This document shows, one piece after another, positions 30,960-40,298 of a DNA stretch of 64,000 bases. A program made the position numbers and the translations under genes. The DNA is taken from NCBI RefSeq assembly GCF_026000775.1, contig NZ_AP026830.1:2007056-2071055 (forward strand), in the 5' to 3' direction. The notes below the pieces were generated by a model that saw only the letters and a list, made by a program, of their open reading frames with translations, made no database searches and had not been told where the DNA came from. This stretch comes from Vulcanisaeta souniana JCM 11219 (GTDB lineage: Archaea > Thermoproteota > Thermoprotei > Thermoproteales > Thermocladiaceae). Every line of letters begins with the position of its first letter. Positions within the stretch are counted from its first letter, which is position 1.

Positions 30960-31298
30960 ATGGTTCTGGCTCAACAGGATGAGGTATGGTCCATGCGTAG
31001 GCTCGTTAACCTTCACAAGATGAAGCGGCCGATTGGTAAGGTTATTGTAAACCCTGATCTTTGTAAGGATTGCAGGTTCTGCATTGAGTTCTGTCCCAAC
31101 AATGTCCTTGAGGAGTCAAAGGACGTTAATATTAAGGGTTATCACTACCCAGTTGTGAGGCCGGGCAAGGAACTTGATTGCGTGGCATGCAGAATGTGCG
31201 AGAAGGTTTGTCCGGACTTCGCAATCACCATAGTCTCCGAGGAATACACAACATACGATAAGTACTACGGGGTGAGTAGGCATGCCCACGGTGGCTGA
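30960..31298 (+). CDS. korD: 2-oxoacid:ferredoxin oxidoreductase delta subunit (ferredoxin type)
   Basis: 112 residues with two [4Fe-4S] cluster motifs, CKDCRFCIEFCPNN (about residue 36) and CVACRMCEKVCPD (about 74). It carries electrons from the thiamine-diphosphate site to ferredoxin. The order delta-alpha-beta-gamma seen here is that of the four-subunit 2-oxoglutarate oxidoreductases of methanogens. The N-terminal MVLAQQDEVWSMRRL is longer than usual. It overlaps the alpha gene by 17 bp. Confidence 0.88.
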   Translation: MVLAQQDEVWSMRRLVNLHKMKRPIGKVIVNPDLCKDCRFCIEFCPNNVLEESKDVNIKGYHYPVVRPGKELDCVACRMCEKVCPDFAITIVSEEYTTYDKYYGVSRHAHGG

Positions 31299-32463
31299 GC
31301 TTTACAAGAAGGACCTGGATAAATTACTGAGGCCTGGTATCCACTTCCTAGACGGTAATACCGCGGTTGCCGAAGGCGCAGTGACTGCTGGGTGTAGGTT
31401 CTATGGCGGTTATCCAATAACGCCATCAAATGAAATAGCTGAATACATGTCATATAGGTTGCCACAGGTCGGTGGTAAGTTCATACAGATGGAGGATGAA
31501 ATAGGTAGTATAATGTCTGTACTGGGTGCGTCGGCTGCTGGTGTTAAGGCAATGACCGCCACATCAGGTCCAGGCTTCTCCCTAATGCAGGAGGAAATTG
31601 GGCTTGGCTCGATGCTTGAGATTCCAGCCTTGATCGTTGATGTAATGAGGGCAGGGCCATCCACCGGCATACCAACACTCCTAGGTCAAGGCGATATTCT
31701 CCAGGCTAAGTATGGTTCCCATGGTGATTACGAGGTTGTGGCTTACCTACCGGCTAATCCCCAGGAGGCATTCGACTTCACAATAAAGGCAATCAACGCG
31801 GCTGAGAGGTATAGGGTTGTTGCCGTTGTCCTTTCCGACCAATTAGTCGGTCATATGTATGGTAAAGTTAGGGTTCCCGAGTTTGATGAGATTGAGATCA
31901 TCGAGAGACCAAAACCAACAGTACCACCGGATCAATATCTGCCCTATGATAGTAGGTACTTGGTGCCACCAATGGCTATTGCCGGTACTGGCTACAGGTC
32001 TAACAATGAATCATTGACACACACGGACAAGGGTTACCCAACCACTGATAGGGACGCGTCGTTTAAACTAATCATGAGGCTTGTCCGTAAGATCAGGGAA
32101 AACGAGAAAGAAATAGCCGAGTGGGAGGAGTACTTGCTTGATGATGCTGAGTACGTTATTGTGTCCTACGGTTCAACGTCGGGTTCCGTGAGAAGGGCAA
32201 TAAAGGTACTGAGGACACAGGGCTATAGGGTTGGTATGCTTAGGCCGAAGACTGCATGGCCGTTTCCAGGCTGGGTTGTGGAGAACCTGGTCTCTAGGGG
32301 TGTTCAGAAGTTCGTAACTGTTGAGGTTAACATGGGCAAGATGTACCATGTGGTTAAGGAGTTCTCTAAGGGAGTTCCCGTGGAGCATGTACCGTACGCT
32401 CCTGGTTATATTCCTGAACCGGATTACGTAATAAACAATGTGAGGAAGGTGATAGAAAGATGA
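31282..32463 (+). CDS. korA: 2-oxoacid:ferredoxin oxidoreductase alpha subunit
   Basis: 393 residues. The family signature GYPITPSNEIAEYM (about residues 47-60), EDEIGSIMSVLGASAAGVKAMTATSGPGFSLM and the C-terminal VEVNMGKMYHVV are all present, typical of the pyrimidine-binding alpha subunit. It oxidatively decarboxylates a 2-oxoacid to acyl-CoA and reduces ferredoxin. Sequence alone cannot separate 2-oxoglutarate from 2-oxoisovalerate or related acids. Its stop overlaps the beta start by 4 bp. Confidence 0.9.
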   Translation: MPTVAELYKKDLDKLLRPGIHFLDGNTAVAEGAVTAGCRFYGGYPITPSNEIAEYMSYRLPQVGGKFIQMEDEIGSIMSVLGASAAGVKAMTATSGPGFSLMQEEIGLGSMLEIPALIVDVMRAGPSTGIPTLLGQGDILQAKYGSHGDYEVVAYLPANPQEAFDFTIKAINAAERYRVVAVVLSDQLVGHMYGKVRVPEFDEIEIIERPKPTVPPDQYLPYDSRYLVPPMAIAGTGYRSNNESLTHTDKGYPTTDRDASFKLIMRLVRKIRENEKEIAEWEEYLLDDAEYVIVSYGSTSGSVRRAIKVLRTQGYRVGMLRPKTAWPFPGWVVENLVSRGVQKFVTVEVNMGKMYHVVKEFSKGVPVEHVPYAPGYIPEPDYVINNVRKVIER

Positions 32464-33296
32464 GTACGGAGGCTGAGGTAACAACCACGGGAGTTAAAGT
32501 AGAGCTTCCTAAGTCCTACGAGGACATAAAGGATTTGATAAGAGTTGATAGGTTACCGCATATCTGGTGTCCAGGATGCGGGTTGGGAATTCTACTTAAG
32601 TTATTGGCTAGGGCTATAAAGAACTCGGGGATACCAATTGAGAAACATGTCATAGTCACTGGCATAGGTTGCACTGGTAGGCTCGGTGGTTACCTAAAGT
32701 TGGATGCGTACCATGTGACTCATGGTAGGGCAATACCATTCGCCGTGGGTTTGAAAATGGCTAACCCAGAGCTTGAGGTAACCGTGGTTGGTGGAGACGG
32801 CGATATATTGGCTATTGGCGGTAATCACTTCATACATGCAGCCAGGAGGAATGATGATATTAATGTCATTATAGTTAATAACTTCATTTACGGAATGACT
32901 GGTGGTCAATACAGCCCAACAACACCAAAGGGCGCCAAGACAACCACATCGCCATACGGTCACTATGAGAACCCATTCAATGTACCATTACTAGCCTATG
33001 CAGCGGGAGCCTCATATGTAACTAGGTGGACCGTTCTCCACCAGAATGAACTCTATCAGTCTCTCCTGGAGATGTTTAAGGTCAAGGGCTTTGCCGTTGT
33101 TGAGGTCTTGTCGCCCTGCATAATCTATACTGATAGGAATGCCATGGGTGATGCTGTTGATCTAATGAGGGTCCTTAAGGAGAGACCTGTGATTGACCAT
33201 AGGGCTAACTTAGCTGATCTGGACATTGATTTTAGTATGAAGAAGATAATCCTGGGAAATTTTGTGAAAAGAGAGAGACCTGTTTCGTACGGGTAA
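32460..33296 (+). CDS. korB: 2-oxoacid:ferredoxin oxidoreductase beta subunit (TPP-binding)
   Basis: 278 residues. WCPGCGLG (about residue 37) and the thiamine diphosphate motif GDGDILAIGGNH...VIIVNN (about 104-142), then YGMTGGQYSPTTP, are those of the catalytic beta subunit. Together with alpha and delta it forms the core enzyme. After its stop comes a 111-bp A/T-rich gap containing further promoter-like boxes, so the gamma gene may belong to the next transcript. Confidence 0.92.
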   Translation: MSTEAEVTTTGVKVELPKSYEDIKDLIRVDRLPHIWCPGCGLGILLKLLARAIKNSGIPIEKHVIVTGIGCTGRLGGYLKLDAYHVTHGRAIPFAVGLKMANPELEVTVVGGDGDILAIGGNHFIHAARRNDDINVIIVNNFIYGMTGGQYSPTTPKGAKTTTSPYGHYENPFNVPLLAYAAGASYVTRWTVLHQNELYQSLLEMFKVKGFAVVEVLSPCIIYTDRNAMGDAVDLMRVLKERPVIDHRANLADLDIDFSMKKIILGNFVKRERPVSYG

Positions 33297-33320
33297 TAAT
33301 CATAAAAATTAAACTTTTTT

Positions 33321-33378
33321 CTTATATAAACACATAATATTAAATAGTTTTTGTCAAAATAGAATAAGATTTATTAAG
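33321..33378 (+). promoter_or_regulatory. Internal promoter region between korB and korC
   Basis: Within this 111-bp A/T-rich gap are two TATA-like boxes, CTTATATAAAC (about 33320-33330) and GATTTATTAAG (about 33368-33378). The second lies about 30 bp before ATG 33408. T-rich runs just after korB could end the upstream transcript. This region splits the locus into two possible transcription units. Confidence 0.45.
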
Positions 33379-33407
33379 GATTCCTAATTGTTTATCAATA
33401 GAAAAAT

Positions 33408-33998
33408 ATGCTACAACAGCTCGATCAGATACGTATCAGGCTTATGGGGCTTGGTGGGCATGGCATTGTATTTGCTGGCAGGCTCCTTGGTATGGCAGCT
33501 GCCATGGGCGGCCTTGACTCAATATTAACAATAACATACAGCCCCGAGCAGAGGGGTGGTTGGTCGAGGGCTGATGTAATAATAGCTAAGGAGATGGTCG
33601 ATTACCCACTCATTGATGAGGCTGATTTATTCCTGGCAACCACGCAGCAGGCATTTAACCTTGAATTCAAGAGTCTACGTAAGGGCGGTGTATTCATTTA
33701 CGAAAGTACAATATACAAGCCCACGATCCCCAACTTAGGCAGTTATGTGGTGATACCAGTACCTGCCACAGAGATTGCAGAAAAAACCACAGGTAGGAAG
33801 CTAACGATGAACGTGGTTCTCGTTGGTATAATAACAGCAATCCTGGAGCCCGTTATAAAGGAAGATCACATAATTAATGCAATAAAGGGCATGACAAGGA
33901 GGGCGGGTAAACTCGATACATCGGTTCAAGAAATGAACATAAAAGCATTTCAGGCAGGGCTCGATTATGGTAAAAAGTACCTGCAAGAACTGAGGTGA
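33408..33998 (+). CDS. korC: 2-oxoacid:ferredoxin oxidoreductase gamma subunit
   Basis: 196 residues of the gamma-subunit fold with LMGLGGHGIVFAGRLLGMAA near the start and EQRGGWSRADVII. The gamma domain completes the oxidoreductase and binds the CoA end. It is separated from the beta gene but sits 4 bp upstream of the HdrA fusion gene, a spacing that suggests gamma and the Hdr proteins are made together, so the oxidoreductase may physically dock on the Hdr complex. Confidence 0.9.
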   Translation: MLQQLDQIRIRLMGLGGHGIVFAGRLLGMAAAMGGLDSILTITYSPEQRGGWSRADVIIAKEMVDYPLIDEADLFLATTQQAFNLEFKSLRKGGVFIYESTIYKPTIPNLGSYVVIPVPATEIAEKTTGRKLTMNVVLVGIITAILEPVIKEDHIINAIKGMTRRAGKLDTSVQEMNIKAFQAGLDYGKKYLQELR

Positions 33999-34002
33999 TT
34001 GT

Positions 34003-37000
34003 ATGCCAACAAATAGGGTCCTCATCCTGGGTGGTGGTATTGCTGGTATTGAGGCTGCTCTTGCCCTGGCTAACATGGGTTATAGGGTTACGCTTGTTGA
34101 GAAGTCCCCTGCCATTGGCGGCAAGATGGCAATGCTCGACAAGACATTCCCAACACTGGACTGCAGCATATGCATAGAAGGACCGTTAATAAGTGACGTA
34201 GCTAGGCACCCACGCATTGAATTATTGTCTCCAGCCGAATTAATCGACCTAACGGGATCTCCAGGTGACTTTAAGGCTAGAATACTGGTTAAGCCCAGGT
34301 ATGTTACTGACGATTGCACGAAATGTGGACAGTGCGAGGATGTGTGTCCGGTGGTCGTACCTAGCGAGTTCGAGTCGGGCATTGGCGCTAGAAAGGCAAT
34401 ATACCTACCATTTCCACAGGCGGAACCTGGAATATACATGCTTGACATAGATCACTGCCTCAATAAGCCACCGAATTATTTCCCTTGCGATAGGTGTGCT
34501 AAGGCCTGCGATAGGAATGCCATAATATACACAATGATGCCCAAGGTCATAGAGCGTGATGTGGCGGCCGTGATCATGTCGACCGGCTTCGAACTCGAGA
34601 AAGGCGAAATCCTCGGGGAGTATGGGTATGGCAGACATATGGATGTGGTGACATCACTCGAATTCGAGAGACTTGTTAATGCATCGGGTCCCTCAAGTGG
34701 TGTTGTTGTTAAGCCAAGTACTGGTGAGGAACCAGAGGACATATTACTCGTGTCCTGCATAGGCTCAAGAAACAATAGGTACAATGATTACTGCTCGGGG
34801 TTCTGTTGCACATACCTGCTTAAGCAGGGTATATACGCCAAGGTACTTCATGGCATTAAGAACGTCACATTAATGTACATGAATGATATTAGGACTTATG
34901 GTAAGGGATTCGAGAACTTCTTCGATAGAGCCCTCAAGGAAGGGGTAAACATTGTTTGGGGTAGGCCGGAGGTGGTTGGTGAGAGAAATGGTAAGATAAT
35001 AGTCAAGTTTGAGGACACCAGGAATAAGAAGGTTACCATGAAGGAGTATGATATGGTTGTCCTGGCGCCCTCCATAAAACCAGTTAATGACATGGGCAAG
35101 TTAAGTAAAATATTGAGCATTTCATTGAATAGGGCTGGCTTTGTAAAGACTGAGTCTACAAACCCCACGTTAACAACAAGGCCTGGTATTTTCGTTGCAG
35201 GGTCGGTTAGTGGCCCTCGGGATATCTCAGAATCCGTGGTTACTGGATTAGCTGCCGCAGTACAGGCAACCAGGTATGCAAGCCCTGGGGTGATTGAAGA
35301 GGAGAAGTATGAGGAGAAGATAGAGCCATACCCAATCAGGGTCGGCGTTTTCGTATGCCACTGCGGTACAAATATAGCTGGTGTAGCCGATGTACCAGCA
35401 TTAGTAGAGGCGGCTAAGCAGATGCCAGGCGTTGTGCATGCCGAGGATCTCCAATTTGCATGTGCCAAATCATCACTGGATAGAATGACAGAGGTGATAA
35501 AGGAGAAGAAACTGAACAGGGTAGTTGTCGCTTCATGTTCCCCAGTCACTCATCTTAGGTTTTTCCAGGATGCTGCGAGGAGGGCTGGTCTTAATCCTTA
35601 CCTCGTGGAGATGACGAATATTAGGAACCTGGACACATGGGTCCACAGCGATAGGAGGGCAGCCACCGAGAAGGCAAAGGACATGATAAAGATGGCGGTA
35701 GCTAAAACCCACCACATGGTACCCCTACAGACAATAAAGCTACCAGTAATTAAGAGGGCCTTAGTCGTTGGTTGTGGACCAGCTGGCCTAGCAGCAGCCA
35801 CTGGATTAGCAGGAGCAGGTATTGAGACTATGCTTGTTGAGAAGGCCAACGAGTGTGGTGGTATGTTAAGGCGTCTAAGTAGGCTTGAACCAGAGGGCTT
35901 TGAAGCTAAGAAACTGCTTGATAGGATGGTTGAGGAGGCTAGGGAGGTTGGTGTTAAGTTCGTGCTTGGTACTACTATTAAGGATGTCTCTGGATTTACA
36001 GGCAATTTCCATGTCGTACTCAGCAATGGTTCCGAGTTGGATGTTGGCGCTATAGTCGTAGCCACGGGCGCCAAGCCCTATATACCAACTGAGTTCAATT
36101 ACGGTAAGGACCCCAGGGTGCTAACAACGCTGGATCTTGAGAATGGGAAGACCGTTGATGGTAAGAACGTGGCCGTAATAAACTGTGTTGGTTCCAGGAC
36201 AAGCAATAGAGGATGTTCAAAGTACTGCTGCGCAGTGGGCCTGAGTAAGGCAATTGAATTAAGGAACCAGGGTAAGAATGTAGTCCTAATTTATAGGGAT
36301 ATAATGGGTGTTGATCCCGAGGTCGAAGACCTATACAAGAAAGCTAGAGACGCTGGTGTTTTGTTCATTAGAGTGCCAAGGAAGGCGGAGTTAACTGAGG
36401 CTATAAAGATGGATAATGATAAGTTGATAGTTAATGATGTTGAGTTAGGGGATGATGTTGAGGTATCATTTGACAATGTCGTCCTTAACATAGGCTTAGT
36501 ACCGAGTGAGGATACAGACGAGGTCTCTAAGGTTTTGAGACTTTCTAGGGATCAGGAGGGTTTCTTGATGGAGGCTCATCCGAAGCTTGGCCCGGTGGAT
36601 ACGATGACACCGGGCATATTCATAGCAGGTGCCGCCAGGGGTCCGAAGAACGTAGCCGAGACAATAGCGGAGGGCTACGCGGCTGCATCAAGGGCATTGA
36701 TGATGCTTGCCCAGGGTTACGTTACCAAGGAACCATTCATTCCGAAGTTTGACTGGTCTAAATGCACTAAATGCGGTCTTTGCATTAAGGCTTGTCCCTA
36801 TGGCGCCATTAGGGGTGTACCCGGTAAGTGGATCGAGCACGTACCAGCCGCTTGCCAGGGTTGTGGTTCATGCGTTGCTGAGTGCCCGCAGGATGCTATA
36901 GCACTTGATGCACTAAGTGATGATGCTATCATGGCTCAGATTGATGCTGCCTTGGCTGAGGAGCCTGAGAGGAAGGTTGTCATGTTCACCTGTGCCTACT

Positions 37001-37392
37001 GCTCCTACTGGGCTGCCGATAATGCCGGTATATTTAAGATGCAGTACCCACCATACGCGAGGATAATTAGGCTTCAGTGCAGTTCTAGGTTGGCTTGGAG
37101 GCATGTTAAGCATGCCTTTGAGCTTGGTGCTGCTGGGGTCTTTGTGACTGGTTGTAGGCTTGGTGACTGCCACTACATAACGGCCAATTACAACACGGTC
37201 AAGAGATTCGAAAACTGGAAAAAGAGACTGAAGAACATAGGCATGAAAGAAGAAAGATTCCAAATGAGACTGTTTGGAGCGCCTGATGTGGTTGACCTAG
37301 TGGAGACTATGAGAGAGGCCGAGAAGGTCGTTAAGACAGTGACTAAGGAGGAGATTGAAATGACAAAACAAAGAATCAAGCAATTAAGGTGA
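34003..37392 (+). CDS. hdrA: Giant HdrA-HdrA-MvhD fusion flavoprotein
   Basis: 1129 residues. First HdrA unit (1 to about 440): FAD loop LILGGGIAGIEAALALANMG, CSICIEGPL, and an inserted ferredoxin motif CTKCGQCEDVCP (about 105). Second unit starts with the HdrA N-terminal domain FVCHCGTNIAGV (about 450), has its own FAD loop VVGCGPAGLAAATGLA (about 590) and a two-cluster ferredoxin, CTKCGLCIKACP and CQGCGSCVAECP (about 921-965). The last 140 residues (FTCAYCSYWAADNAG, VTGCRLGDCHY) match MvhD. HdrA is the flavin-bifurcating subunit of heterodisulfide reductase. Unit one lacks the HdrA N-terminal and C-terminal domains while unit two lacks the inserted ferredoxin, so the fusion seems to complement itself as an intramolecular dimer. 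Confidence 0.88.
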   Translation: MPTNRVLILGGGIAGIEAALALANMGYRVTLVEKSPAIGGKMAMLDKTFPTLDCSICIEGPLISDVARHPRIELLSPAELIDLTGSPGDFKARILVKPRYVTDDCTKCGQCEDVCPVVVPSEFESGIGARKAIYLPFPQAEPGIYMLDIDHCLNKPPNYFPCDRCAKACDRNAIIYTMMPKVIERDVAAVIMSTGFELEKGEILGEYGYGRHMDVVTSLEFERLVNASGPSSGVVVKPSTGEEPEDILLVSCIGSRNNRYNDYCSGFCCTYLLKQGIYAKVLHGIKNVTLMYMNDIRTYGKGFENFFDRALKEGVNIVWGRPEVVGERNGKIIVKFEDTRNKKVTMKEYDMVVLAPSIKPVNDMGKLSKILSISLNRAGFVKTESTNPTLTTRPGIFVAGSVSGPRDISESVVTGLAAAVQATRYASPGVIEEEKYEEKIEPYPIRVGVFVCHCGTNIAGVADVPALVEAAKQMPGVVHAEDLQFACAKSSLDRMTEVIKEKKLNRVVVASCSPVTHLRFFQDAARRAGLNPYLVEMTNIRNLDTWVHSDRRAATEKAKDMIKMAVAKTHHMVPLQTIKLPVIKRALVVGCGPAGLAAATGLAGAGIETMLVEKANECGGMLRRLSRLEPEGFEAKKLLDRMVEEAREVGVKFVLGTTIKDVSGFTGNFHVVLSNGSELDVGAIVVATGAKPYIPTEFNYGKDPRVLTTLDLENGKTVDGKNVAVINCVGSRTSNRGCSKYCCAVGLSKAIELRNQGKNVVLIYRDIMGVDPEVEDLYKKARDAGVLFIRVPRKAELTEAIKMDNDKLIVNDVELGDDVEVSFDNVVLNIGLVPSEDTDEVSKVLRLSRDQEGFLMEAHPKLGPVDTMTPGIFIAGAARGPKNVAETIAEGYAAASRALMMLAQGYVTKEPFIPKFDWSKCTKCGLCIKACPYGAIRGVPGKWIEHVPAACQGCGSCVAECPQDAIALDALSDDAIMAQIDAALAEEPERKVVMFTCAYCSYWAADNAGIFKMQYPPYARIIRLQCSSRLAWRHVKHAFELGAAGVFVTGCRLGDCHYITANYNTVKRFENWKKRLKNIGMKEERFQMRLFGAPDVVDLVETMREAEKVVKTVTKEEIEMTKQRIKQLR

Positions 37393-38522
37393 TGAACATG
37401 CCAGTAACCGTTAACTTCGGCCTTAGGGAGGAACTCCTTAAGTTGGTGCCCACACTAGGCCTTTGTTATCAATGCGGAACATGTAGCACCTACTGCCCAA
37501 TAACGGATGAATCATACAACATTAGGCTAATCGTTAAGAAGGCTCAACTTGGTGTTGTTGAACCAAAGGACTTTAAGGTCATTTGGGACTGCGTAACCTG
37601 CGGTACTTGCCAGGCCCTGTGCCCCAACAATGTCGAGATTGTGAATCTCGTAGAGATAATTAGGACAATGGCCATGAAGTCCAAGGTATTCCCAACAAAG
37701 ATTAATGAGATACTCTGGAAGATTTATGAGAACCAGAACCCATGGGGCTACACAGTCACTGATAAGAGAAGATTCTTAGCTCAATTCAGTAGTTTAATTA
37801 ATAATGAGAACCCAGATGTGGTTATTTATCCATGCTGCTTATCAATTGGAGATCCAAGAGTTCAGAAGCACATTAAGGCCTTGATTAGGGTATTGACCAA
37901 GGCTGGCCTCAAGGTAGGCATATACACTGGTTTATCTTGCTGTGGCGACATTATTGAGCATACAGGTAATAAGGCATTCTACGAGGAATACACAGCAAAG
38001 TTGAGAGACTCAATAATGAGTAACATTAAGGCTCCAGTAATAGTGACATTATCACCACACTGTGAGTATTCCCTTAAGAAGTATCTTAAGGGCATTAAAG
38101 TGATTCATTACGTAGAATTACTTGATGAGCTTATACGTAATGGTAAGTTAAAGATTGATAAGAAGGCAGACATTACCGTAACTTATCATGATCCATGTTA
38201 CTTATCTAAGCATCAAAGGATCATTGAGGAGCCCAGGAGGGTGATCACTTCAGTACCTGGCGTTAGGCTTGTTGAAATGATCCACTCAGGGGAGAAGTCC
38301 CTCTGCTGTGGCGCCGGCGGTGGAGGCATAGCCCTAGAGACTAGGGTATCCACTGATTTATCAAAGCGTAGGTTAAAGGAGGCAATCGACACGGGTGCTT
38401 CTGTTGTGCTCACCGCATGCACCTACTGCTTCAGGATGCTTGAGGATGCAAATAAGGTAGTGAAAACAAACATGAAGGTTATGGACCTAGTTGAGTTCCT
38501 AGATAGTATTATGGGTGATTAG
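37392..38522 (+). CDS. hdrD: HdrD-like protein (HdrC-HdrB fusion)
   Basis: About 376 residues: two [4Fe-4S] motifs, CYQCGTCSTYCP (about 25) and CVTCGTCQALCP (about 69), then two CCG domains. The first CCG domain has YPCCLSIGD and LSCCGDI; the second has HDPCYLSKH, SLCCGAGGGG and TACTYC. HdrD reduces heterodisulfides or comparable substrates with its noncubane clusters. The start ATG 37392 overlaps the HdrA stop (TGATG). It lies between HdrA and ETF, so it is likely one end of the electron chain. Its substrate is unknown, since Thermoproteales lack coenzyme M and B. Confidence 0.85.
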   Translation: MNMPVTVNFGLREELLKLVPTLGLCYQCGTCSTYCPITDESYNIRLIVKKAQLGVVEPKDFKVIWDCVTCGTCQALCPNNVEIVNLVEIIRTMAMKSKVFPTKINEILWKIYENQNPWGYTVTDKRRFLAQFSSLINNENPDVVIYPCCLSIGDPRVQKHIKALIRVLTKAGLKVGIYTGLSCCGDIIEHTGNKAFYEEYTAKLRDSIMSNIKAPVIVTLSPHCEYSLKKYLKGIKVIHYVELLDELIRNGKLKIDKKADITVTYHDPCYLSKHQRIIEEPRRVITSVPGVRLVEMIHSGEKSLCCGAGGGGIALETRVSTDLSKRRLKEAIDTGASVVLTACTYCFRMLEDANKVVKTNMKVMDLVEFLDSIMGD

Positions 38523-38523
38523 C

Positions 38524-39504
38524 ATGAGTGAATGGAGGGGAATATCCGTATTTATCGAGCAGGATAATGGCGAGCTAGAAGGGGCTTCACTTGAGGTTTT
38601 AACGAGGGCAGGCGAGCTAGGAAGGAAGTTTAATGAGGATGTTCTCGGCATATTACTGGGCCATGAGTTGAAGAATATAGCTAAGGAGTCCTCCCAGTAT
38701 GGCGCCGATAAGCTCATTGTAGTTAATCATCCTGACCTAAGGCATTACAATAGTGATGCTTATACAGAGGTCATGGCTTACCTAATTAATAAGTACAGAC
38801 CTAGGTACTTATTATTACCAGCCACTAGGAATTCGAGGGATCTGGCTGGTAGGTTAGCAGTTAGGTTTAGGGCTTGTTTGAGCGCCCATGTTATTATGGT
38901 TGATATTGATGAGAGGGATAGGAAGTTGGTCACTGCGGTACCTGGCTTCGGTGGTAACATAGTTGCCACTGTAGTTTGTACGAGTGGTAAACCCGAAATG
39001 GCTACTGTAAGCCCAGGAACCTACGAAGCAAAGCTGAGCAACAAGGAAGCTACTATAATTGAGGAGACAATACCCGAGGGTGCGTTGAGAGGTCGTAGAA
39101 TAGAGCTTATGGAGAAGAAGACCTCACCAATGCCGGATTTATCAAGGGCTGAGAAGGTCGTCGTGGCTGGTCTTGGCACTGGCGGTGATCTGGAGTTAAT
39201 TAAGGAATTTGCAAGTTTAATAGGGGCTGCAATTGGCGTTACGAGGCCCCTTGCAGACATGGGCTTAATGCCCAGGGACTATCAAATAGGTACCACGGGA
39301 GTTTCATTGAGGGCTAAGACCGTATTTGTGTTTGGCGCAAGTGGTGCTCCGCACTTCGTCTACGGCATTAGGGACTGTGGCACCATAGTTGCCGTCAATA
39401 CTGATAAGGAGGCACCCATATTTGAGAACTGCGATTACTGCGTTGTGGCTGACCTATTTGATTTACTTAAGGTGTTGATAAAGGAAATGAGGGGTGGTAA
39501 GTGA
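38524..39504 (+). CDS. etfA: Electron transfer flavoprotein alpha subunit
   Basis: About 326 residues. The C-terminal FAD domain is clear: AEKVVVAGLGTGGDLELIKEFA, RPLADMGLMPRDYQIGTTG and IVAVNTDKEAPIFENCDYCVVADLFDLL. ETF alpha binds FAD and pairs with ETF beta to carry single electrons from acyl-CoA dehydrogenases or, in bifurcating ETFs, to split electrons. The gene precedes the beta gene, the reverse of the usual beta-alpha order. The ATG at 38524 is preferred to the GTG at 38515, which overlaps the hdrD stop. Confidence 0.9.
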   Translation: MSEWRGISVFIEQDNGELEGASLEVLTRAGELGRKFNEDVLGILLGHELKNIAKESSQYGADKLIVVNHPDLRHYNSDAYTEVMAYLINKYRPRYLLLPATRNSRDLAGRLAVRFRACLSAHVIMVDIDERDRKLVTAVPGFGGNIVATVVCTSGKPEMATVSPGTYEAKLSNKEATIIEETIPEGALRGRRIELMEKKTSPMPDLSRAEKVVVAGLGTGGDLELIKEFASLIGAAIGVTRPLADMGLMPRDYQIGTTGVSLRAKTVFVFGASGAPHFVYGIRDCGTIVAVNTDKEAPIFENCDYCVVADLFDLLKVLIKEMRGGK

Positions 39505-40298
39505 TGGCATCTCTCAGGAATATAATAGTTACAATGAAGGTAACGCCGAAGCCCGAGGAGATTAGGTTCGACCCAACCACCAAGACTGTTGATAGGTCTA
39601 AGGCAACCAATGAAATAAATCCAGCAGACAAGAACGCCCTAGAGTTAGCTCTGCAATTAAAGGAGAAGTATGGTGGTAGGGTTGTTATACTGTCCATGGG
39701 TCCGCCATTCTGGGATCAATTCCTTAAGATGGGCATAGCAATGGGTGCAGATGACGCAGTGCTAATAAGTGATAGGGCATTGGGCGGCTCTGACGCCTTT
39801 GTAACTTCTAGGGTACTCGCGGCAGCAGTTAAGAAAATAGGAGATTACTCACTTGTTATTGCTGGTGAGGAGAGTGAGGATGGCTCAACAGGGCAAGTGC
39901 CTCCCGGCATGGCCGAGTGGTTGGGAATTCCTGCCGTTACGTATGTTTCACAGGTCACTGATGCTATGGAAGACTCAATAATTGTTAAGAGGACTATTAA
40001 GGGCGGCTATGAGACAGTTAAGGTTAAGTTACCTGCAGTTATATCGGTAGAGCTTGGTATAAATACACCGAGGTTTCCTGACTTCGAGAGACTACAGTGG
40101 GCTCAAAACGAGTTTAAGACAACCATATGGGGCATTAAAGACCTGGGCATTGCAGAGAATGAGGTCGGCTTTAAGGGTTCGTTAACTGCCGTAACCGAAT
40201 TAAGAGAATTAAGGCCACGTGAACGACTACGTCAATTCATCGAGGGAAGTCCCGAGGAGATAGCCAGAGAGTTAATTAAGAGACTCGGATTGAAGTGA
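39504..40298 (+). CDS. etfB: Electron transfer flavoprotein beta subunit
   Basis: About 264 residues. Marks: EINPADKNALELALQLKEKYGG, MGADDAVLISDRALGGSDAF and the binding loop GEESEDGSTGQVPPGMAEWLG (about residues 115-135). The loop matches the ETF-beta DGxTxQVxP motif. Its start overlaps the alpha stop (TGATG). The two genes end the operon; no FixC/EtfC quinone oxidoreductase follows, and no acyl-CoA dehydrogenase lies in the window, so the partner donor or acceptor is unknown. Confidence 0.9.
   Translation: MASLRNIIVTMKVTPKPEEIRFDPTTKTVDRSKATNEINPADKNALELALQLKEKYGGRVVILSMGPPFWDQFLKMGIAMGADDAVLISDRALGGSDAFVTSRVLAAAVKKIGDYSLVIAGEESEDGSTGQVPPGMAEWLGIPAVTYVSQVTDAMEDSIIVKRTIKGGYETVKVKLPAVISVELGINTPRFPDFERLQWAQNEFKTTIWGIKDLGIAENEVGFKGSLTAVTELRELRPRERLRQFIEGSPEEIARELIKRLGLK

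Follow-up and report, generated by a model that had tools for sequence, protein, structure and literature searches.

A conserved Kor-Hdr-Etf gene cluster of Vulcanisaeta souniana and other prokaryotes, predicted to couple 2-oxoacid oxidation to an electron transfer flavoprotein

Results

The korDABC-hdrA-hdrD-etfAB locus

Here we analyzed a 64,000-nucleotide window of the Vulcanisaeta souniana JCM 11219 genome (GCF_026000775.1, contig NZ_AP026830.1, positions 2,007,056 to 2,071,055), in which eight open reading frames (ORFs) on the plus strand, at window positions 30960-40298, form the gene cluster korDABC-hdrA-hdrD-etfAB. All eight ORFs and their junctions were recovered as described in the initial annotation of this DNA, and Pfam and NCBIfam agreed on their domains. 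The first genes encode the four subunits of a 2-oxoacid:ferredoxin oxidoreductase (Kor): korD (30960-31298), the two-[4Fe-4S] ferredoxin subunit, with Fer4 domains and OGOR_delta as its best NCBIfam match; korA (31282-32463), the alpha subunit, with POR_N and PFOR_II domains and a score above the NF006412 cut-off; korB (32460-33296), the thiamine pyrophosphate-binding beta subunit (PF02775), nearest in NCBIfam to the 2-oxoglutarate ferredoxin oxidoreductase beta subunit; and korC (33408-33998), the gamma subunit (PF01558). These are followed by hdrA (34003-37392), which encodes an internally duplicated HdrA of 1129 residues with a C-terminal MvhD domain, by hdrD (37389-38522), which encodes a predicted soluble EtfD-like relay of 377 residues with an HdrC-type two-cluster ferredoxin and two CCG domains, and by etfA (38515-39504) and etfB (39501-40298), the alpha and beta subunits of an electron transfer flavoprotein (ETF). 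The genes are tightly packed, with a 4-bp gap between korC and hdrA, 4-bp overlaps (GTGATG) at hdrA/hdrD and etfA/etfB, and an 8-bp overlap at hdrD/etfA.

The one wide spacing is an AT-rich, non-coding stretch of 111 bp with a T-run between korB and korC (33297-33407, plus strand). A missed ORF was ruled out here, since every frame contains stops. The gap is kept in four Vulcanisaeta and restricted to that genus, and in other lineages the two genes overlap or nearly abut. Its composition suggests a possible internal promoter or terminator.

Conservation and spread of the cluster

Besides Vulcanisaeta, the identical eight-gene order occurs in four further families of its phylum, in Anaerolineae and Dehalococcoidia, in Elusimicrobia and in a Thermoplasmata metagenome-assembled genome (MAG), so the gene set proposed from the window is conserved across archaea and bacteria. 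Within the genus, the operon is preserved together with its flanks, a RIO-type kinase upstream and eIF1A downstream. In a sample of 398 genomes from the phylum, every HdrA outside the genus that was at least 46% identical to the window protein lay in this order (11 genomes, four families; in two of these the contig stops before the last gene is complete), and the more distant HdrA loci examined lacked it. Other genera of Vulcanisaeta's own family had no HdrA of the cluster type in this sample, and the distribution is therefore patchy. Among named genomes, the full set was found in Dehalococcoidia, Anaerolineaceae, Anaerolineae, a further Chloroflexi MAG and the Thermoplasmata MAG, and in Elusimicrobia it is present up to the contig end. 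In a sample of 400 Chloroflexota genomes, all HdrA proteins scoring above 1600 bits, each with at least 1616 bits (seven genomes), were within the cluster, one of them without korD at a contig edge; the next-best loci examined had neither Kor nor ETF nearby. On every sufficiently long contig with this HdrA subfamily the same order is thus found, far above chance.

The trees of seven genes are alike in their main groupings, with distance correlations of 0.75-0.95. In all seven, the window groups with L079, and a bacterial group includes the Thermoplasmata MAG UBA61 (L104). The latter placement points to the operon having moved as a unit from one domain to the other, a misbinned contig being the alternative. 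Interruptions of the cluster were seen at two loci: a foreign gene lies between hdrD and etfA in L170, and two ORFs lie between korC and hdrA in L102.

In several archaeal genomes, a divergently transcribed gene lies just upstream of the operon (L080 3717-4703, L082 14096-15097, L085 3682-4668, L087 3967-5034 and L089 3859-4926). It encodes a protein of 328-355 residues that has no Pfam match, is 23-83% identical between loci and is possibly an operon regulator.

HdrA contains a candidate coupling flavin

The first half of HdrA (residues 1-441) comprises a flavin adenine dinucleotide (FAD) domain with an iron-sulfur insert and includes K274 and K301. The second half (445-966) comprises an HdrA N-domain, a second FAD domain and a two-cluster ferredoxin, and the MvhD (FlpD) domain follows at 992-1112. 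The full-length AlphaFold model (predicted local distance difference test score, pLDDT, 71.8) is of low confidence over the iron-sulfur inserts and was used for fold matching only. K274 aligns with K409 of 5odc_A, a residue that Wagner and colleagues reportedly described in 2017 as a contact of the FAD N5. All 27 members carry this Lys in the first FAD domain, and the second FAD domain does not conserve it, which makes the first FAD (FAD1) the likely coupling flavin. Every HdrA cofactor site that we checked is preserved throughout the family, the bifurcation Lys and the cysteines of MvhD among them. As to possible NADH use by the second FAD domain, inspection of the alignment by eye revealed no GGGxSA-type NADPH motif.

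The ETF is probably a carrier

By sequence, both ETF subunits are closest in the PDB to bifurcating ETFs. In Ldh-EtfAB, loss of the Arg that touches N5 of the bifurcating FAD (b-FAD) abolishes bifurcation (PMC9232219). At the corresponding EtfA position (LctC R205), Val is found in 24 of 26 members, including Val142 of the window protein, with Asn and Thr in one each and Arg in none. The b-FAD motif of EtfB, DGDTAQVGP in bifurcating ETFs, reads DGSTGQVPP in the window and D[GAS][SGA]T..VP. across the family; no member has the second Asp. With the Arg absent and the motif altered, the cluster ETF is probably a non-bifurcating carrier. The initial annotation had proposed two possible bifurcating flavins, one in HdrA and one in ETF, and of these the residues leave HdrA as the likely coupling flavin. 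The EtfA of a separate EtfABCX set in the same genome, read by eye, retains the bifurcation Arg.

HdrD resembles EtfD

The best solved relative of HdrD, by both sequence and fold, is Mycobacterium smegmatis EtfD (9ojn), which hands ETF electrons on to menaquinone. The HdrD model (pLDDT 87) matches 9ojn with a TMq of 0.82, compared with 0.53 or less for HdrB. In EtfD, a non-catalytic noncubane cluster is held by C637, C672, C673, C709, C712 and H583, the last of which replaces the bridging Cys of HdrB (PMC13083937). The HdrD equivalents, C270, C306, C307, C344, C347 and H224, are invariant in all 27 members. The C-terminal CCG domain is complete, and the N-terminal five-Cys site is broken in all 27, with S/D-P-H-C/S in place of CxxC; in the L102 protein this site has no cysteine at all. 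EtfD homologues without a cluster at the N-terminal site are thought to still accept ETF electrons (PMC13083937). The ligands of the linear [3Fe-4S] D1 cluster of EtfD (C503, C538, C581 and C584) are not matched as a set, since HdrD has Ser (Asp in one member) at the C581 position, Cys or Ser at the C584 position, and an extra Cys185. Judged by length and fold match, the 377 residues cover only the soluble part of 9ojn and are too few for its membrane and heme b region.

From these features we assign HdrD as a soluble relative of EtfD, an ETF-linked iron-sulfur wire rather than a disulfide reductase, and action on a heterodisulfide-like substrate appears unlikely. Given the EtfD fold, the EtfD ligands including the His, and the broken HdrB-type N-terminal site, we regard the ETF of the cluster as its most likely partner.

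Loci with korDABC-hdrA-hdrD and no etfAB, found in other bacteria, offer a comparison. We examined ten (L108, L110, L111, L116, L135, L148, L144, L157, L163 and L176). Both five-Cys sites are kept in nine of the HdrD proteins (C[AP]EC); in the tenth, from L108, the C-terminal site is intact and the N-terminal site is missing its last Cys. The Ser-Pro-His (SPH) signature is present in none of them, and these loci may represent a sister system with a disulfide-type end. Among all loci examined, the sole exception to the pairing of SPH with ETF is L125 (14210-15478), where an SPHC-containing HdrD lies between two HdrA genes with no ETF detected within 10 kb.

Kor and its tie to HdrA

The domains of a four-subunit 2-oxoacid:ferredoxin oxidoreductase are all present in Kor (POR_N/PFOR_II, thiamine pyrophosphate-binding, gamma and ferredoxin). 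The solved structures closest to KorA are 1yd7 and the 2-oxoglutarate synthase 8ys5, and the closest families and structures overall are of 2-oxoglutarate or generic 2-keto acid types. By homology, then, Kor looks like a 2-oxoglutarate-type enzyme.

A second HdrA (HdrA2), 66% identical to the cluster protein, is encoded elsewhere in the genome in a Por-Hdr locus conserved in the genus, which consists of PorGDAB, a short HdrC and HdrA2-MvhD (L039 3950-11413; C1:1482949-1490412). The N-terminus of HdrA2 is fused to a KorD-like ferredoxin that is 45% identical to KorD, and the short HdrC follows without HdrB. We infer from this fusion, the best sequence evidence available, that KorD docks on HdrA. 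The two hdrA genes (window 34003-37392; L039 7332-11413) also share tracts of 100% nucleotide identity. Residues 522-561 and 973-1129, and with them the entire MvhD domain, are identical at every nucleotide, residues 1-40 nearly so, and most of the remainder is 50-77% identical; the first 45 bp of hdrD and hdrC2 are likewise identical. We interpret these tracts as gene conversion, and its extension over the MvhD domain suggests that HdrA and HdrA2 may share an MvhD partner.

Separately, a PorGDAB pyruvate-type oxidoreductase adjoins the operon itself in some archaea and some Chloroflexota (L203, L204 and L080-L085), making Por a recurrent neighbor.

Redox partners and genome context

Acyl-CoA dehydrogenases were found in 23 of the 25 cluster genomes, and a universal link to these enzymes was rejected because the other two had no match. 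NiFe hydrogenase (PF00374) had no match in nine of the 25. For the Vulcanisaeta genome, a hydrogenase or F420 partner for MvhD was considered and rejected, with no match to PF00374 or PF04432.

The initial annotation had also suggested that the system operates without a quinone oxidoreductase. This holds for the cluster and fails for the genome, which encodes two further ETF systems: an ETF with a 681-residue membrane EtfD (L201 4770-8703) and an EtfABCX-type set (L202 5677-9205). The same genome carries a locus of DsrE-like, MvhD, QmoA, QmoB and QmoC genes, as in sulfate reducers (L040 7087-12986). Family f39 alone has an acyl-CoA dehydrogenase close to the operon, at a distance of about 5 kb; there, it and an acetoacetyl-CoA-synthetase-like gene are found within 5 kb upstream (L089 3-3265, with matching places in L087).

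Discussion

We accept the eight genes as encoding one predicted functional unit that couples 2-oxoacid oxidation to ETF, much as first proposed for this locus. The gene order over two domains of life, the agreement of the trees and the ferredoxin-HdrA fusion all argue for it, and from them we infer physical interaction of the subunits.

In known HdrA systems, MvhD brings in a mid-potential electron pair, ferredoxin forms the low-potential branch and HdrC/HdrB the high-potential branch. Our best model, to which we give an even chance, would keep this scheme with Kor in place of ferredoxin and ETF in place of the disulfide, within a single soluble Kor-Hdr-Etf complex. KorABC would oxidize a 2-oxoacid, or run in reverse, and, by way of KorD, deliver electrons at about -500 mV to the first HdrA FAD. 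At the other end, EtfAB would shuttle to and from dehydrogenases, such as acyl-CoA dehydrogenases, and its FAD would exchange electrons with the His-capped noncubane cluster of HdrD, whose HdrC-like clusters would face HdrA. FAD1 would then confurcate one low-potential electron from Kor with one high-potential electron supplied by ETF. The mid-potential pair would exit via the MvhD domain, toward a partner encoded outside the cluster; the opposite direction would be bifurcation. On textbook potentials, about -500 mV and about 0 mV would meet near -250 mV. As a speculation, branched-chain 2-oxoacids, processed by Kor and then by an acyl-CoA dehydrogenase, could supply both branches 1:1; this is speculative because Kor looks 2-oxoglutarate-like and two of the 25 genomes have no detected acyl-CoA dehydrogenase. 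That an eight-subunit confurcating or bifurcating complex, with a 2-oxoacid oxidoreductase as its low branch, ETF as its high branch and HdrA as the coupling flavin, is common to archaea and bacteria is a proposal we make tentatively, at somewhat below an even chance.

Several observations weigh against this model. K274 and K301 are conserved in most HdrA proteins and so mark competence for bifurcation rather than function. No MvhD-linked electron donor (MvhAG, FdhAB or F420) is encoded in any cluster examined, and neither NiFe hydrogenase nor FrhB/FdhB was found in the genome of the window. The two genomes without a detected acyl-CoA dehydrogenase count against it as well, as does the 111-bp gap, which may split the Vulcanisaeta transcript.

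The missing MvhD partner speaks for the main rival, a plain wire from 2-oxoacid through Kor, HdrA and HdrD to ETF, or the reverse, with HdrA a mere conduit. ETF would then feed reductases or, through the membrane EtfD or the FixABCX (EtfABCX) set of the same genome, the quinone pool, and this route requires the fewest unseen parts. However, every HdrA cofactor site checked is retained, including the bifurcation Lys and MvhD cysteines that a conduit would not need, and a direct fall from -500 mV to ETF would squander energy. We therefore regard the wire as rather unlikely.

Alternatively, Kor, HdrA-HdrD and EtfAB could be separate enzymes, co-regulated for one pathway and forming no complex. 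ETF is normally a diffusible carrier, and the Vulcanisaeta gap and the insertions in L170 and L102 fit such an arrangement. The strict order over two domains, the overlapping starts, the ferredoxin-HdrA fusion and the matching of HdrB-site loss to ETF presence do not, and we consider it improbable. The earlier reading, in which HdrD reduces an unknown disulfide and both ETF and HdrA bifurcate, draws on family names, on the PDB relatives of the ETF and on the complete C-terminal CCG domain of HdrD, and is very improbable given an N-terminal CCG domain lacking its C..C pair in 27 of 27 members (and all its cysteines in L102), a His224 that corresponds to the residue rendering the EtfD cluster non-catalytic, and an ETF without the EtfA Arg (26 of 26) or the second Asp of the EtfB motif.

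The confurcating complex that we favor would combine parts of several known systems. Like HdrABC-MvhAGD and HdrA2B2C2, it has the HdrA FAD, the bifurcation Lys (here K274), the C-terminal two-cluster ferredoxin, the MvhD domain and HdrC-type clusters. Unlike them, it has an internally duplicated HdrA, a low branch linked with a 2-oxoacid oxidoreductase and a high branch predicted to end in ETF through the EtfD-like HdrD rather than in a disulfide, and its gene cluster lacks a hydrogenase, a formate dehydrogenase and an F420 module. HdrABC-type enzymes are recognized by two complete five-Cys, disulfide-cleaving noncubane sites; HdrD has one, and for this reason we do not class Kor-Hdr-Etf as a heterodisulfide reductase. 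With EtfD and other DUF224-type ETF:quinone oxidoreductases, HdrD shares its fold, its noncubane ligands including the His, and its position adjoining etfAB, and it differs from M. smegmatis EtfD (9OJN; PMC13083937) in being, by size, without the membrane and heme b region, in its coupling to HdrA and in its D1 ligand set. The bifurcating ETF complexes (Bcd-EtfAB, CarCDE, Ldh-EtfAB and EtfABCX) include the closest solved relatives of both ETF subunits by sequence, but here the N5-contact Arg is replaced, DGDTAQVGP is altered and EtfA has no ferredoxin domain. Kor matches KorDABC 2-oxoglutarate:ferredoxin oxidoreductases in sequence and four-subunit make-up, and differs in its genetic tie to HdrA, a tie that in other bacteria occurs without etfAB and mostly with a two-site HdrD. 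A membrane-type ETF-Hdr link is known from Desulfobacterium, in which HdrF3 occurs with etfBA. We found no description of korDABC-hdrA-hdrD-etfAB in the open-access literature (a search that did not extend to subscription papers, among them any on 'Ca. V. moutnovskia'), and the combination is absent from the reviews of bifurcating enzymes that we consulted. The parts are thus known families, and their combination is apparently an undescribed variant of Hdr-based electron-coupling complexes.

For annotation, the N-terminal SPH signature provides a testable rule, since in nearly all of the compared loci it tells ETF-linked HdrD proteins apart from those with two sites. It also bears on the role of HdrD-like proteins in organisms without coenzyme M and coenzyme B, for which the sequences of these clusters point to ETF. 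Under anaerobic conditions and in the absence of a quinone, it is difficult to dispose of the electrons that ETF gains when acyl-CoA is oxidized and in similar reactions, and pairing them with 2-oxoacid electrons would lift them to a useful potential.

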